From an uncultured Phycicoccus sp. (GTDB lineage Bacteria > Actinomycetota > Actinomycetes > Actinomycetales > Dermatophilaceae): a stretch of 64,000 nt of DNA. Within the stretch, counting starts at the first letter, position 1; the number at the start of each line of letters is the position of its first letter. Made by a program: the position numbers and the translations under genes. The DNA is taken from contig NZ_CANLZR010000001.1 of NCBI RefSeq assembly GCF_947495705.1, forward strand, positions 434,001 to 498,000, given 5' to 3'. This document shows, one piece after another, positions 24,464 through 30,828 of this stretch. The notes under the pieces were generated by a model that did not search any database, was not told the origin of the DNA, and worked only from the letters and a program-made list of their open reading frames with translations.

Positions 24464-26230
24464 GTGGCCATGCGCATGTCGTCCCTGTTCCTGCGAACCC
24501 TTCGCGAGGACCCGGCGGACGCTGAGGTGCCGAGCCACCGGCTGCTCGTGCGGGCCGGGTACGTCCGACGGGTGAGCCCCGGCATCTACACCTGGTTGCC
24601 GCTCGGCCTCAAGGTGCTGCGCAAGGTCGAGACCGTCGTCCGCGAGGAGATGGACGCCATCGGCGCCCAGGAGCTGCTCTTCCCGGCCCTGCTCCCTCGC
24701 GAGCCCTACGAGGCGTCCGGCCGCTGGTCCGAGTACGGCCCCAACGTGTTCCGGCTCAAGGACCGCAAGGATGGCGACTACCTGCTCGGGCCGACGCACG
24801 AGGAGATGTTCACCCTCGCCGTCAAGGACATGTACAGCTCGTACAAGGACCTGCCGCTCGCGCTCTACCAGATCCAGACGAAGTACCGCGACGAGGCCCG
24901 GCCGCGGGCCGGGGTGCTGCGCGGCCGCGAGTTCGTCATGAAGGACAGCTACTCCTTCGACCTCGACGAGGCCGGGCTCGACAAGAGCTACCAGCTGCAC
25001 CGCGACGCGTACGTGCGGATCTTCGACCGGCTCGGCTTCCACTACGTCATCGTCGAGGCGATGGCCGGCGCGATGGGCGGGTCGAAGTCCGAGGAGTTCC
25101 TCGCGACGGCCGAGAACGGCGAGGACACCTACGTCCGATGCGGCAACTGCGGGTACGCCGCGAACGTCGAGGCCGTGCGGGTGCCGGCCGCCGAGGCGGT
25201 CGACGCCTCCGGGGTCCCGGCCGCACACGTCGAGGACACCCCCGACACCCCCACCATCGACACCCTCGTCGCGCACCTCGAGGCGGCGTTCCCGCGCACG
25301 GACGGCCGCTCCTGGTCGGCCGCGGACACCCTGAAGAACGTGATCGTCATGCTCGTCCACCCCGACGGTACCCGGGAGCCGCTGGCCATCGGCCTGCCCG
25401 GCGACCGCGAGGTCGACGAGAAGCGCCTCGGGGCGCAGGTCGAGCCCGCCGTCGTCGAGCCGTTCGCCGAGGCCGACTTCGCCGCCCGCCCGACGCTCGC
25501 GAAGGGGTACATCGGCCCCGGGGTCCTCGGCACCGACCGACCCTCGGGCATCCGGTACCTCCTCGACCCCCGCGTCGGCGAGGGCACCGCCTGGGTCACC
25601 GGCGCCGACGAGACCGGGCGGCACGTCCTCGACCTCGTCGCCGGCCGGGACTTCACCGCCGACGGGACCATCGAGGCCGCCGAGGTACGCGACGGTGACG
25701 CCTGCCCGTCGTGCGGTCACGGGCTGGAGTCGGCGCGCGGCATCGAGATGGGTCACGTGTTCCAGCTCGGCACCAAGTACGCCGAGGCCCTGGACCTCAA
25801 GGTGCTCGACGAGAACGGCAAGCTGCGCACGGTCGTCATGGGCTCCTACGGCGTGGGCGTGTCCCGGGCCGTCGGCTGCATCGCCGAGGGCAACCACGAC
25901 GAGCTGGGCCTGGTCTGGCCGCGGGCGCTCGCCCCCGCCGACGTCCACCTCGTCGCGACGGGCAAGTCCGACGAGGTGTTCACCTACGCCGAGGAGCTGA
26001 CCCGCTCGCTCGAGGCACACGGCGTCGAGGTGCTGTTCGACGACCGTCGCCAGGCCAGCCCCGGCGTGAAGTTCAAGGACGCCGAGCTCGTCGGGGTGCC
26101 GACGATCGTCGTCGTCGGGCGGGGGTTGGCCGACGGGACCGTCGAGCTCAAGGACCGCCGCTCCGGGGAGCGCCGCGACGTCCCGGTCGCCGACGCCGTC
26201 GCCGAGATCCTCGCGGAGATCGGCCGCTGA
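24464..26230 (+). CDS. proS: Prolyl-tRNA synthetase (bacterial type with editing insertion)
   Basis: A 588-residue class II synthetase, charging tRNA-Pro. Motif 2 is [10 protein letters not shown] with FVMKDSYSF, motif 3 [14 protein letters not shown] YbaK-type editing (INS) domain lies between motifs 2 and 3 (about 230-400), and a C-terminal anticodon-binding domain covers about 490-588. GTG 24464 has AGGAG seven bases upstream; ATGs at 24470 and 24476 are alternatives. A possible -10 box TATCCT at 24420-24425 would give a 30-40 base leader. The stop overlaps the HAD gene start (TGATG). Confidence 0.95.
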
Positions 26231-26988
26231 TGGGCCGGCCGGTCGAGGCGGTCGTCTTCGACTGGGGCGGGACCCTGACCCCCTGGCACGACGTCGACCT
26301 CCCCGAGCAGTGGCGCGTCTTCGCCCGCGAGGTCCACGGCGTGCCGTTCGCCTCCGACGAGGTCCCGCAGGAGGACCTCGATGCGGCGCACCGGCTGGCC
26401 GAGCGCATCCTCGAGGTCGAGGCCTCGGCCTGGCACCGAGGCCGGACCCAGCACTCCTCGGCGAGCCTCGAGGCCATCCTCGACGAGGCCGGGATCGACC
26501 CCGCGCACGACCGGCACCACCTGGCGCTCGCGGCATACCGGCGGTTCTGGGAGCCGCACACGCACACCGACCCGCAGGTCCGCCCGCTGTGGGCGGGGTT
26601 GCGGGAGCGGGGCATCCGGGTCGGGGTGCTGTCCAACACGATCTGGAGCCGCGCCTACCACCGCGAGATCTTCGAGCGGGACGCCGTGCTCGACCTCATC
26701 GACGCCGACCTGTACAGCAGCGAGCTCGACCACGTGAAGCCGCACCCGGAGGTCTTCCGCGCGGCCTGTCGAGCCGTCGACGTCGAGCCGGAGCGTGCGG
26801 TGTACGTAGGCGACCGTCTGTTCGAGGACGTCCACGGGCCGCAGCAGGTCGGGATGCGCGCCATCTGGATCCCGCACTCGAGCATCCCGGCGGACCAGAC
26901 CGTCGAGGTGCCGGCGGTCCCCGACGCGCGGGCCCACGAGCTGCTCGACGTGCTGACCGTCGTCGACGGCTGGCTGGCCGGCGCGTGA
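26230..26988 (+). CDS. HAD-superfamily hydrolase with DWGGT motif
   Basis: A 252-residue HAD protein: motif I DWGGTL with nucleophile Asp11, motif II LSNT (135-138), motif III Lys170 (KPHPEVF) and motif IV GDRLFED at 194-200, plus a helical cap (about 20-110). The +2 position of motif I is Gly13 rather than the usual Asp general acid of phosphatases; such DxGGT forms occur in several uncharacterised HADs. The ATG overlaps the proS stop (TGATG). A phosphatase or phosphoglycolate/nucleotidase-like role is possible; substrate unknown. Confidence 0.8.
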   Translation: MGRPVEAVVFDWGGTLTPWHDVDLPEQWRVFAREVHGVPFASDEVPQEDLDAAHRLAERILEVEASAWHRGRTQHSSASLEAILDEAGIDPAHDRHHLALAAYRRFWEPHTHTDPQVRPLWAGLRERGIRVGVLSNTIWSRAYHREIFERDAVLDLIDADLYSSELDHVKPHPEVFRAACRAVDVEPERAVYVGDRLFEDVHGPQQVGMRAIWIPHSSIPADQTVEVPAVPDARAHELLDVLTVVDGWLAGA

Positions 26989-27000
26989 CCCGGCCGCGTC

Positions 27001-27780
27001 GTGGCTGACCCCGAGCTCCACGTCCTCGTCCTGCTCGGCCTGGCCGGCTTCCTCGCCGGCTGGGTCGACGCGGTGGTCGGCGGGGGAGGGCTGGTGCAGC
27101 TGCCCGCGCTGCTGCTCGGGATGCCGGGGGCGACCCCGGCGCAGGTGCTGGCGACGAACAAGTTCGGCTCGGTGTGGGGGACCGCGACCGCCTCGGTCAC
27201 GTACTACCGGCGGATCCGGCCCGACCTGCGCACGGCGCTGCCGATGGCGGGGGTGGCGTACGTCGGCGCGGTCGGCGGGGCGCTCATCGGGCTGCACATC
27301 CCGAAGTCGCTCTTCAACCCGATCATCCTCGTGATGCTCGTCGTCGTCGGCGCGTACACGCTGCTCAAGCCGTCCGTGGGTGAGCTGACCCGGCTGCGGT
27401 GGAGCGGCGCCCGGCACACGACCGCGGCGGTGCTCACCGGCTTCGTCATCGGGGTGTACGACGGTGCGCTCGGGCCGGGGACGGGGAGCTTCCTGGTGTT
27501 CGCGCTCGTCGGGCTGCTCGGGTACGCGTTCCTCGAGGCCAGCGCGAAGGCGAAGATCGCCAACCTCGCGACGAACCTCGGGGCGTTGACCGTCTTCGCG
27601 CCGGGGGGTCACGTCGTGTGGACCGTGGGCGCCGTCATGGCGGTGATGAACCTCGCCGGTGGCTACGTCGGGGCGCGGACCGCGGTCGCGCGGGGGAGCC
27701 GCTTCGTGCGGGTCGTGTTCATCGTCGTCGTCACGGCGTTCGTCATCCGCATCGGCGGCGACCTCCTCGGCCTCTGGTGA
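27001..27780 (+). CDS. TauE/SafE (YfcA)-family membrane transporter
   Basis: A 259-residue membrane protein with about eight transmembrane spans and the two family repeats: GFLAGWVDAVVGGGGLVQLP near the N-terminus and GFVIGVYDGALGPGTGSF in the second half. The family is associated with export or import of sulfite, sulfoacetate and other organic anions. GTG 27001 starts the protein, 12 bases after the HAD stop. The gene converges on the DUF559 gene, with a palindromic repeat between them. Confidence 0.85.
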   Translation: MADPELHVLVLLGLAGFLAGWVDAVVGGGGLVQLPALLLGMPGATPAQVLATNKFGSVWGTATASVTYYRRIRPDLRTALPMAGVAYVGAVGGALIGLHIPKSLFNPIILVMLVVVGAYTLLKPSVGELTRLRWSGARHTTAAVLTGFVIGVYDGALGPGTGSFLVFALVGLLGYAFLEASAKAKIANLATNLGALTVFAPGGHVVWTVGAVMAVMNLAGGYVGARTAVARGSRFVRVVFIVVVTAFVIRIGGDLLGLW

Positions 27781-27797
27781 CCCCCGCCGTCCTCTCG

Positions 27798-27847
27798 CGA
27801 ACGTGTGTGAAGACTGGAGCCATAGCGACGGCTTTCACCCACGTTCG
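27798..27847. repeat. 50-bp palindromic repeat, copy 1
   Basis: Arms CGAACGTGTGTGAA (27798-27811) and TTCACCCACGTTCG (27834-27847) pair at 13 of 14 positions around a 22-base loop containing ATAGCG. A second copy in the same orientation lies at 28844-28893, with 43 of 50 bases identical. The right arm contains the stop codon (27835-27837) of the DUF559 gene. It also lies between two convergent genes and could act as their terminator. Confidence 0.85.
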
Positions 27848-28788
27848 GCAGGGGGAGGGGGCGTTGGGCGACCGAGGACCCCGGACCGCACCTGAGCCAT
27901 GAAGGCCGGCTCGTGAACCCGGAGCCCGACCAGGTCGATGCGCAGGACGACGTCACCCGTCAGGGACACCTCGTTCTGCCGCAGGTTGTCATCGGTGACC
28001 GAGAGCCCGACCCGGTGCCCCGCGCCGTCGATCTCGACCACCAGCCGGCTGCCCGCCCAGCGCACATCGAGGTAGATCCGTCCGCGCGCGGTACGACGCA
28101 GGACCTGCCGGTGCGGCGGGGGGATGTCGTAGCGCCGGCAGAGCACGGCGAAGTCGAGCTCCCCGAGCGACTGCGCGCCGTCGGCGACGTCCCGGAGCAC
28201 CTGCCGGACGAATGGCCGCCGACCACGGTTGCGGACAACGCGGAACGTCGACAGGAGCCGGTGCCCCGTCGTGAGGCGCTGCTGCACGGCGAGGCACAGC
28301 ACGAGGGCCGCCTGGCGGTCGCTACGCGCCCACGCTGCCGCGCGCAGGGTCGCAACCTCGGGGGCGGTACGCGGCAGGCCGCAGGACTGGACCTCCCCGG
28401 GGGTCCGGGTGACGCGGTGGATGCGCACGCCGTCGGCCTCGGGGCACTGGGCGTTGCGGGGGACCGAGACGTGGACGACCGGCTCGTGGTAGCCGGTGAG
28501 CCCCACGGCCTGGAGGGAGCTGACGCCGTCGACGAGCGCCACGCCCTCGGCGACCTCCCAGACGGCGCGCCATCGCCGGCCTTCGTCGGACACCCCGCCC
28601 GTGTGCAGCGCGACCGTGTGCGTGCCGAGCCGCTGCCAACGGTCACCGTCGATCTCGCGCCGGATGGCCGAGTGGTCGTAGCCGAGGCCGGCGAGGCGGC
28701 GCATCGTGAGAACGCCCCCGAACTCCTCGGCCGCGGCGGCAGCCGCCCGCCGCAGGAGGCGGCGTGCTGGGCGGTGGACGTCGGGCAT
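27835..28788 (-). CDS. AbiEi-like/DUF559 endonuclease-domain protein
   Basis: A 317-residue protein. The N-terminus (about 15-65) resembles the winged-helix domain found in AbiEi-type antitoxins (LTMRRLAGLGYDHSAIRREI). The C-terminal DUF559 domain has a Vsr/PD-(D/E)XK-like core: Glu210 (LGELDF), Asp241 (YLDVRW), Glu252 and His258 (VEIDGAGH), then DDNLRQNEV. Such proteins are often multicopy in actinobacteria and their function is unknown. The last codons (ERG-stop) are encoded by the palindromic repeat, and another copy of that repeat lies 56 bases upstream of the start. ATG 28788 is preceded by CAGGCT 6 bases upstream, a near-consensus -10. Confidence 0.8.
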   Translation of the reverse strand: MPDVHRPARRLLRRAAAAAAEEFGGVLTMRRLAGLGYDHSAIRREIDGDRWQRLGTHTVALHTGGVSDEGRRWRAVWEVAEGVALVDGVSSLQAVGLTGYHEPVVHVSVPRNAQCPEADGVRIHRVTRTPGEVQSCGLPRTAPEVATLRAAAWARSDRQAALVLCLAVQQRLTTGHRLLSTFRVVRNRGRRPFVRQVLRDVADGAQSLGELDFAVLCRRYDIPPPHRQVLRRTARGRIYLDVRWAGSRLVVEIDGAGHRVGLSVTDDNLRQNEVSLTGDVVLRIDLVGLRVHEPAFMAQVRSGVLGRPTPPPPAERG

Positions 28789-28843
28789 GGACCGAGCCTG
28801 CCGAGATCGCGCCGATCGCCCGCGGATTCATCCACAGGCTGCG

Positions 28844-28893
28844 CGAACGTGGGTGAAGACCGGTCGGATAGCGGCGGCTTTCACCCACGTTCG
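28844..28893. repeat. 50-bp palindromic repeat, copy 2
   Basis: Arms CGAACGTGGGTGAA (28844-28857) and TTCACCCACGTTCG (28880-28893) are perfectly complementary around a 22-base loop with GGATAGCGGCGG. It is in the same orientation as copy 1, 1046 bases away, and lies between the DUF559 start and the amylosucrase stop. Together the copies bracket the endonuclease gene. Confidence 0.88.
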
Positions 28894-28908
28894 GGTGGGG
28901 CGGGGGGG

Positions 28909-30828
28909 TCAGCGGGGTGGGACGGTGAGCCAGAGGGCCGCGTAGGGCGGGAGGTGGACGTCGCCGTCGTCCCCCCACGGCAGCGTCCGCCCCGTGATGG
29001 CGTCGACGGCGTCGGCCAGCCCGAGGGAGTGGACCCGCCAGCCCGGCCAGACCCGGGTCTGCGGTGTCACGTTGTACACGCCGGCAAATCGCCCCAGCGG
29101 GTGGTCGCGCAGGGTGACGAGCACCCCGGTGTCGTCGACCGGCCCGACCGTCGTGGGCACCGACGCGTGCAGGTGCGGCAGCGACGCCCGCGCCCGGCCG
29201 AGCTCGACGAGGTCGCTGAACACCCGACCCGGGACGGTGGAGGTGTCGTGGCGGGCCTCGGCGCGCTGCCAGTCCAATCGTGGCCGGTGGGCCCACCGGT
29301 TGTCGTCCGCATGCCCGGGCTCGCTCGCCCAGTCGGGGTCGTTCGGCTGGCCCAGCTCGTCACCGCTCCAGATGACCGGGATGCCGCCCCAGCCGTAGAC
29401 GACGGCGTGCGCGAGGCGGAGCGCGGCGAGCGCCTCCTCGGTCTCCTCGGGCGTCTCCGCGGCCTCGAGCCCGACGAGCGAGGCGGCGGTGCCGGACGTG
29501 CGCCGGTCGCCGGTGTCCGGGTTGAACTGGAAGGTGAGGCCGCGGGCGGGGGAGCCCCAGAAGTCGCCGACGTACCAGTCGGCGAGGAAGTGCCGGTGCC
29601 CCGGCCCGGTGGACCCGACCGCCTCGGCGTCGTCGTCCATCACCGCCCAACCGATGTCGTCGTGGCAGCGCAGGTAGGTGAGCCAGGTCGCCGTCGGCGG
29701 CTCCGGTGGCAGCGACCCCAGAGCCTGCGCGGCGAGCCGGACGTCACGCGAGGCCAGCATCGACCACACCTGGACCATGAGGCTGTTGTGGTACGCGAGG
29801 TCACTGACCTTGCCGGTGTGCGGCCCCTGCCCGAGGTAGGCGAGGAGCTTGGACGGGGCCACGATCGCCTCGGCCTTGAACGCGACCGCCGGGCACGTGA
29901 TGCGGGTGACGGCGCGCAGCACCTGGGTGATCGCGTGGACCTCCGGCTGGCCCTGGCAGTCGGTGCCCAGGCGCTTCCACATGAACGCGATGGCGTCCAG
30001 GCGCAGCACGTCGACCCCGCGGTTCGCGAGCTCGAGGATGATCTGCACGTACTCCGCGAGCACGTCCGGGTTGCCCCAGTTGACGTCCCACTGCCATTCG
30101 TTGAACGTCGTCCAGACCCAGCCCCGCAGGTTCTCGTCCCAGGTGAAGTTGCCGGGGGCGAAGTCCGGGAAGACCTCGGGGAGGGTGCGCTCGTAGGCGT
30201 CGGGGAGCCGGCGGTCGGCGAACACGTGGAAGTACGACCGGTAGCGGAGCATCCCGCCGCGCGCCCGCACCGCCCAGTCGTGCTCGCGGGCCACGTGGTT
30301 GAGCACGAGGTCGAGGACGAGGCTCATGTCGCGGTCGTGCAGGTCGTCGGCGAGCGCGGCGAGGTCGTCCATCGTCCCGAGGTCCGGACGCACCCGGCGG
30401 TAGTCGACGACCGCGTAGCCGCCGTCGTTGTCGCCCTCCCGGGTCTCGAGCAGGGGCATGAGATGCAGGTACCTGACCCCGAGCTCCTCCAGGTAGGACA
30501 GGTGCGTCGACACGTCCTGCAGGTCGTCGGCGAAGCGCTCGGTGTACGCGGCGTAGCCCACCATCGCGGGGTCCTGGAGCCAGTCCGGGCGCAGCATCCG
30601 CTCGAGGTCGCGACGGTGGAGGCGGTCGGGCCGGCGGGCGAAGGCGCGGGCTGCGTGGGTCACCACCTCGGTCCCGGTCTGGAGGGCCCGGTCCGCTCCG
30701 TAGAGCTCGGTGAGGCCGGCGTGGAGGTCGGGCCACCAGCGGTCGAGCCGGGCGTGGAGCATCTCGGCGCGCTCCGCGCCGAGCCCGAGGTCGGGCAGGG
30801 GCGGGGGCGGGGGCACCGGTGCACTCAC
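28909..30828 (-). CDS. Amylosucrase (GH13 subfamily 4)
   Basis: A 639-residue glucan sucrase that transfers glucose from sucrose to alpha-1,4-glucan. The architecture follows Neisseria amylosucrase: helical N-domain (about 1-90), (beta/alpha)8 barrel and C-terminal beta domain. Catalytic residues: nucleophile Asp278 (VDVLRLDA), acid/base Glu320 (FKAEAI) and the transition-state Asp in RCHDDIGW (about 390). SGTAASLVGLE is the family segment after domain B'. GTG 30828 is chosen; CAGAAT 6 bases upstream could be a leaderless -10. No sucrose transporter or glycogen gene is adjacent. Confidence 0.9.
   Translation of the reverse strand: MSAPVPPPPPLPDLGLGAERAEMLHARLDRWWPDLHAGLTELYGADRALQTGTEVVTHAARAFARRPDRLHRRDLERMLRPDWLQDPAMVGYAAYTERFADDLQDVSTHLSYLEELGVRYLHLMPLLETREGDNDGGYAVVDYRRVRPDLGTMDDLAALADDLHDRDMSLVLDLVLNHVAREHDWAVRARGGMLRYRSYFHVFADRRLPDAYERTLPEVFPDFAPGNFTWDENLRGWVWTTFNEWQWDVNWGNPDVLAEYVQIILELANRGVDVLRLDAIAFMWKRLGTDCQGQPEVHAITQVLRAVTRITCPAVAFKAEAIVAPSKLLAYLGQGPHTGKVSDLAYHNSLMVQVWSMLASRDVRLAAQALGSLPPEPPTATWLTYLRCHDDIGWAVMDDDAEAVGSTGPGHRHFLADWYVGDFWGSPARGLTFQFNPDTGDRRTSGTAASLVGLEAAETPEETEEALAALRLAHAVVYGWGGIPVIWSGDELGQPNDPDWASEPGHADDNRWAHRPRLDWQRAEARHDTSTVPGRVFSDLVELGRARASLPHLHASVPTTVGPVDDTGVLVTLRDHPLGRFAGVYNVTPQTRVWPGWRVHSLGLADAVDAITGRTLPWGDDGDVHLPPYAALWLTVPPR

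Follow-up and report, generated by a model that had tools for sequence, protein, structure and literature searches.

A nuclease-like enzyme family and its co-diversified palindromes in Actinomycetes, a probable analogue of REP-RAYT systems

The window analysed here is a 64,000-nucleotide stretch from an uncultured Phycicoccus sp. (contig NZ_CANLZR010000001.1, positions 434,001 to 498,000). It contains a gene for a 317-residue enzyme (27835..28788, minus strand), AbiEi-like in its front part and DUF559/Vsr-like in its back part, lying between two copies of a 50-bp palindrome (referred to as palindrome 1). Relatives of this enzyme gene were found with flanking repeats, palindromes of 40-60 bases, across Actinomycetes and, at the level of sequence, enzyme clade and palindrome family have diverged together. 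The enzyme and its palindrome probably form a pair like that of repetitive extragenic palindromes (REPs or REPINs) and REP-associated tyrosine transposases (RAYTs), built on an unrelated enzyme with an AbiEi-type DNA-binding front and a Vsr/PD-(D/E)XK-like back.

Flanking repeats at enzyme relatives across Actinomycetes

The flank test scored the repeat shared between the upstream and downstream flanks of a gene, with a score of at least 20 counted as a match. It covered the window, the window's own copy (L205), 34 first loci and 69 later loci. The first loci, in which the pattern was originally noticed, comprised 16 from relatives in named genomes and 18 stretches from the genus; the later loci (L206-L274) were fetched after the pattern had been seen. 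The test used 79 of the 85 relatives and, as controls, 536 of the 774 other genes, those left out being shorter than 300 bases, having less than 200 bases of flank or containing runs of N.

A flank repeat was present at 49 of the 79 relatives and at 7 of the 536 other genes; several of these control matches were the same palindromes around neighbouring genes. When the upstream flank of one relative was compared with the downstream flank of another, 2 of 79 gave a match. With duplicates removed (L205, L188 and L189) the repeat was found at 46 of 76 relatives and at 46 of the 62 that were full length. The later loci alone gave 22 of 47 relatives (22 of 36 full length) versus 4 of 240 other genes. 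Restricting the test to genes separated by at least 60 bp from both neighbours gave 30 of 47 relatives versus 5 of 126 others. The flanked share dropped with distance (26/30, 9/18, 9/18 and 2/10 in falling score bins).

Most of the first 34 loci had a palindrome repeat on both sides, with a sequence that varied among clades; it was weak or absent at least in L054, L056, L191 (contig end) and L201 (gene fragment). Altogether, 63 of 118 sampled Actinomycetes genomes carried a relative, and many held several. An earlier note on this DNA had marked a REP/RAYT-like link as inference. That link is now strongly supported by the clustering of palindromes at these genes across Actinomycetes, by clade-matched palindrome sequence and by co-occurrence within genomes. 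The opposite pattern, in which palindromes stand at random sites as ordinary terminators unrelated to the genes and orthologues lack them, was looked for and was not what was found.

Co-diversification of enzyme and palindrome

Palindrome sequence varied by enzyme clade, and 48 elements formed 12 to 28 clusters depending on the threshold. Protein identity and palindrome-arm similarity were correlated among the 48 proteins at which a repeat was detected (Mantel rho 0.31 with relatedness uncorrected; 0 of 300 permutations as high), and the correlation was about equal for the three parts of the protein. The enzyme tree was built from 46 relatives of at least 270 amino acids and at least 200 bits, and the TauE-locus gene of G011, a truncated call, was left out. 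Supported clades in this tree included the TauE-locus GAACGTGTGTGAA enzymes, the genus TCGAGGTGAA enzymes and the Janibacter GGTGGAGGT enzymes.

Co-occurrence was scored in 12 genomes of the sampled genus, which belongs to the Dermatophilaceae/Intrasporangiaceae group. Palindrome 1 was present in nine of these genomes and its enzyme in eight, G002 being the sole exception. Palindrome 2 was present in exactly the five genomes with a clade-2 enzyme, with the wrinkle that the clade-2 enzyme of G003 was flanked by a variant, TCGAGGTAT. It is very probable that the enzyme recognises its cognate palindrome.

Distribution and structure of palindrome 1

The 48-bp pattern of palindrome 1 had 8 copies in the window's genome. 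Strict copies numbered 110 in the genus, with 0 to 30 in each genome: eight genomes held 8 to 30 copies and G003 held one. None of 135 genomes from outside the genus contained palindrome 1. Its outer 13 bases were nearly invariant in sequence, not merely in pairing, while its inner 22-24 bases fell into two main types that both retained pairing. Pairs 14-20 were Watson-Crick in 78-95% of 87 distinct 48-mers versus 47-57% with the 3' letters shuffled, a contrast that lay largely between the two inner types. Close to the tip, pairs 22 and 24 were Watson-Crick no more often than in the shuffles.

Placement was measured on 102 copies with at most four arm mismatches from seven of the nine palindrome-1 genomes, the copies of G009 being those among the matches listed; G002 and G004 contributed to the strict-copy count and not to the placed set. 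Eighty-two of the 102 followed a stop codon by no more than 40 nt, mostly by 10-30 nt, against 22% for random intergenic placement, and in 10 the stop codon fell within an arm. Sixty-three copies were between tandem genes, 31 between convergent genes and eight between divergent genes. One additional copy was inside a called gene.

The spacing behind stop codons, together with the 31 convergent copies, would suit ordinary factor-independent terminators that flank the enzyme gene by chance and are kept as RNA hairpins. When 60 tandem copies were oriented along the transcribed strand, however, the mismatches at pairs 1-21 comprised 16 G.U, 17 A.C and 37 others, and over all 24 pairs there were 27 G.U and 25 A.C. 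Since G.U was not in excess over A.C, the pairing is not maintained specifically as RNA. Terminators also leave unexplained the invariance of the outer arms beyond pairing, the clade-matched palindrome sequence, the control rate of 7/536 and the co-occurrence by genome, and this explanation is considered very unlikely.

Protein domains and candidate active site

Residues 8-195 of the window enzyme (28204..28767, minus strand) were predicted to form a winged helix and AbiEi domain, likely the DNA-reading part, and AbiEi was matched by the N-terminal half of the protein. Residues 196-300 (27889..28203, minus strand) were predicted to form a Vsr/PD-(D/E)XK-like nuclease part on several lines of evidence, each weak alone. 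The DUF559/Vsr-like profile gave the window enzyme 14.3 bits, below the curated cut-off of 20.6, and matched seven of 16 aligned relatives at E<=0.1 (best 6.1e-4). The candidate active-site residues E210, D241, E252 and D254 (28027..28161, minus strand) were scored in 48 palindrome-flanked relatives, a set made up only of those with a detected flanking repeat at a score of at least 18. E210, D241 and E252 were invariant in all 48, as were D267 and W51, and D254 was kept in 41.

According to PMC7319586, AbiEi binds two 23-bp inverted repeats spaced by 3 bp, 49 bp in total. This target is about the size of the 50-bp palindrome and was counted in favour of a REP/RAYT-like pair. The same paper describes the targets of AbiEi and Rv2827c as 23-bp inverted repeats in their own promoters. 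The enzyme might accordingly be read as an autoregulator, an AbiEi-type repressor with the palindromes as its operators, in which the nuclease part is vestigial or has another role and the dispersed copies titrate or regulate. The N-terminal AbiEi fold and the palindrome copy upstream of the enzyme gene are in line with this reading, but the gene also has a copy on its downstream side. With 82 of the 102 placed copies close behind stop codons and eight in divergent gaps, most copies are not promoter sites, and the invariance of candidate active-site residues in all 48 palindrome-flanked relatives also speaks against a repressor of this kind. Autoregulation is rated unlikely.

The window locus and the TauE/amylase junction

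The left palindrome copy in the window (27798..27847) lies between the 3' ends of a TauE/SafE gene (27001..27780, plus strand), the conserved left neighbour, and of the enzyme gene, whose last three codons and TGA stop are inside the palindrome. The right copy (28844..28893) is 55 bp before the predicted enzyme start and 15 bp past the end of an alpha-amylase family gene (28909..30816, minus strand), the conserved right neighbour. Gene calls, including the amylase start, came from a simple codon-usage script and not from an annotation. The two copies were identical at 43 of 50 positions. The earlier description of two palindromes flanking an AbiEi-DUF559-like gene, one of them giving its stop codon, was borne out. 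The arm motif occurred four times in the window versus 0.32 expected by chance. A search of bases 26000-30000 for known RNA families gave just two sub-threshold matches, neither of them on the palindromes. A reading of the arms as DNA uptake sequences was rejected, as 18 of 22 exact half-sites in the window's own genome pair up into nine palindromes.

The enzyme gene was at one TauE/amylase locus in all eight genus genomes that have the palindrome-1 enzyme; G004 showed no TauE, its contig ending within the enzyme gene so that one flank was visible. A palindrome, in some cases degenerate, stood on each side of the gene. The enzyme gene pointed towards TauE in the window, G006 and G007 and away from TauE in G003, G009, G010 and G011. 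The two orientations correspond to sister clades in the enzyme tree, which does not contain G011, so a single inversion is enough to account for them. The enzyme gene was absent from the locus in G001, G005 and G002, and G008 had neither the enzyme nor the amylase gene. At the junction in G002 (L183:420-500) the enzyme was gone and half an arm remained as a scar; the amylase frame there lacked its usual stop and read on. The enzyme-free junction of G005 (L174, about 1375-1480) carried an unrelated long palindrome (CTGCCGGAACCTTCG..).

The 1.1-kb palindrome-gene-palindrome block had been taken in the earlier note for a mobile unit, which in classical form would have the palindromes as its ends. 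Its presence in eight of the 12 genus genomes, its absence from the others and the occurrence of both orientations would fit such a unit. Against it, the block held to a single locus, the opposite orientations fell in sister clades, and palindromes far outnumbered blocks, with gene-free copies scattered among the 110. A single locus with tree-following orientation makes the block look fixed rather than hopping. The claim found no support, and a classical mobile unit is regarded as highly improbable.

At E<=1e-5 the enzyme had no match in a collection of 72,556 plasmid records, from which records near the window's genome may be missing, and a plasmid-borne module was rejected on this result. 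A phage module was likewise rejected, the one match among 50,697 records being to a faecal scaffold that carries no annotation. The relative on this scaffold (L275, MT837139.1, 3688-4563) had 50% identity and flanking palindromes of its own (GGTGATGCAG..).

Gain and loss of palindromes at orthologous sites

A comparison of empty and filled sites among the genus genomes, as had been suggested earlier, revealed palindromes gained or lost at orthologous 3' ends. One conserved 3' end carried palindrome 1 in G006, G007 and G009 and lacked it in nine of the 12 genomes. Six genomes had the same convergent neighbour there, with gaps of 66 and 71 bp where the site was filled (G006 and G009) and of 20, 21, 24 and 41 bp where it was empty. 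A second 3' end carried palindrome 1 in G006 and G007 and lacked it in the nine other genomes matching over the gene; the next gene often differed among the palindrome-free genomes, and G002 gave no full match. At this second end G003 and G009 (L292 and L293, upstream of an L084-homologous gene) contained three to four tandem palindrome-like repeats of a different family (GTGCA..ATCGACGAAAG..). One site held palindrome 1 in G009 and G006 and two palindrome-2-like copies in G011, and was empty in G000. A further palindrome family (GAGTGGCCAGGACAC..) was seen in G006 (L087:3737-3876) where G000, G009 and G011 have palindrome 1.

Inner-stem types were not the same at orthologous sites. Such swaps are expected from gene conversion and would agree with a guardian or addiction role, in which the palindromes serve as marks (for cruciform cutting, chromosome protection or punishing the loss of flanking genes) and spread by gene conversion or other means. 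The fixation of the enzyme gene largely at one genus locus and the lack of matches in the 72,556 plasmid records (E<=1e-5) point the same way. However, the same 3' ends were filled in some genomes and empty in others, and one site was occupied by different families; presence/absence together with family replacement requires insertion, not conversion alone. The guardian role is judged improbable, and enzyme-driven spread of the palindrome is considered likely.

Comparison with REP/REPIN-RAYT and other systems

Features of RAYTs and REPs used for comparison were taken from PMC8049555, PMC3733652 and PMC8266576. The system resembles REP/REPIN-RAYT in its working and is no member of it. The resemblances are short palindromes with conserved ends and a variable middle that are dispersed between genes, copies flanking the gene of a cognate enzyme, a chromosomal and largely fixed enzyme gene, and joint divergence of enzyme and palindrome; one family here also formed short-period arrays, mostly of 63-64 bp. 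In contrast, the enzyme is not an HUH/Y1 transposase and, judged by its sequence and fold matches, is unrelated to one. The palindrome also folds back on itself with near-perfect symmetry across some 50 bp. Palindrome 1, the only family scored, lacked a GTAG or CGTC tag in its conserved flanking columns, which were C/G (position 0 was C.G in 51 of 60). PMC8049555 describes RAYTs as single-copy, vertically inherited and unseen on plasmids; the enzyme likewise had no match in the plasmid records, though many genomes here contained several enzyme relatives. The Y1_Tnp profile (PF01797) matched in 0 of 12 genus genomes and in 5 of 14 control genomes, and a RAYT as the mobiliser was rejected on this basis.

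The enzyme shares its N-terminal fold with the AbiE type IV toxin-antitoxin proteins (AbiEi and Rv2827c). It differs from them in its extra C-terminal nuclease-like domain and in the absence of an adjacent AbiEii nucleotidyltransferase toxin at the window locus, where the neighbours are TauE and amylase. The homing endonuclease I-Bth0305I and the enzymes PvuRts1I/AbaSI are Vsr-like nucleases. Unlike these nucleases, the enzyme described here is coupled to a palindrome family, and no intron or modified-base role was seen. No published link between this protein family and palindromes was found in the literature searched, among the matches listed.

Proposed mechanism and significance

In the proposed mechanism, the AbiEi-like N-terminal half would bind the arms of the cognate palindrome as inverted half-sites, and the C-terminal Vsr/PD-(D/E)XK-like domain would nick or cut DNA at the palindrome. 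The palindrome would be a non-autonomous repeat whose copies the enzyme spreads through the chromosome, for instance via break repair or copying through the fold-back hairpin. Copies may be found mostly just behind stop codons as the sites of least harm, with a possible terminator role, and the enzyme gene would for the most part keep to a single locus between two palindromes, as REPs flank RAYT genes.

More broadly, Actinobacteria seem likely to hold a large unrecognised REPIN-RAYT analogue, in which a restriction-type nuclease (AbiEi plus Vsr-like) takes the place of an HUH transposase and recognises and copies its own dispersed palindrome in many co-diverged specificities. A large actinobacterial family, often present in several copies and annotated somewhere between DUF559 and AbiEi-like, would thereby gain a candidate function. 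The 48 elements and their 12 to 28 clusters offer many natural enzyme-palindrome pairs for recognition tests. The findings suggest that palindrome dispersal in bacteria has more than one origin, each with an enzyme unrelated to the other; if so, the spread of short palindromes, a long-standing question, becomes directly testable outside HUH systems.

Other palindrome families

Palindrome 2 (TCGAGGTGAA) had 14 copies in G003, 20 in G005, 5 in G011, 17 in G009 and one in G004, with none in the remaining seven of the 12 genus genomes. In 20 fetched stretches (L304-L323), 15 of 23 arrays were within 60 bp after a stop codon. These arrays contained up to four copies with a period of mostly 63-64 bp. 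A third pattern, derived from the enzyme of G008, had a single copy in the 12 genomes, next to the enzyme gene it came from, so that dispersal is shown for two families. In some distant families a CTATCG/CATAG-like core seemed, by eye and without being counted, to lie at the palindrome apex.
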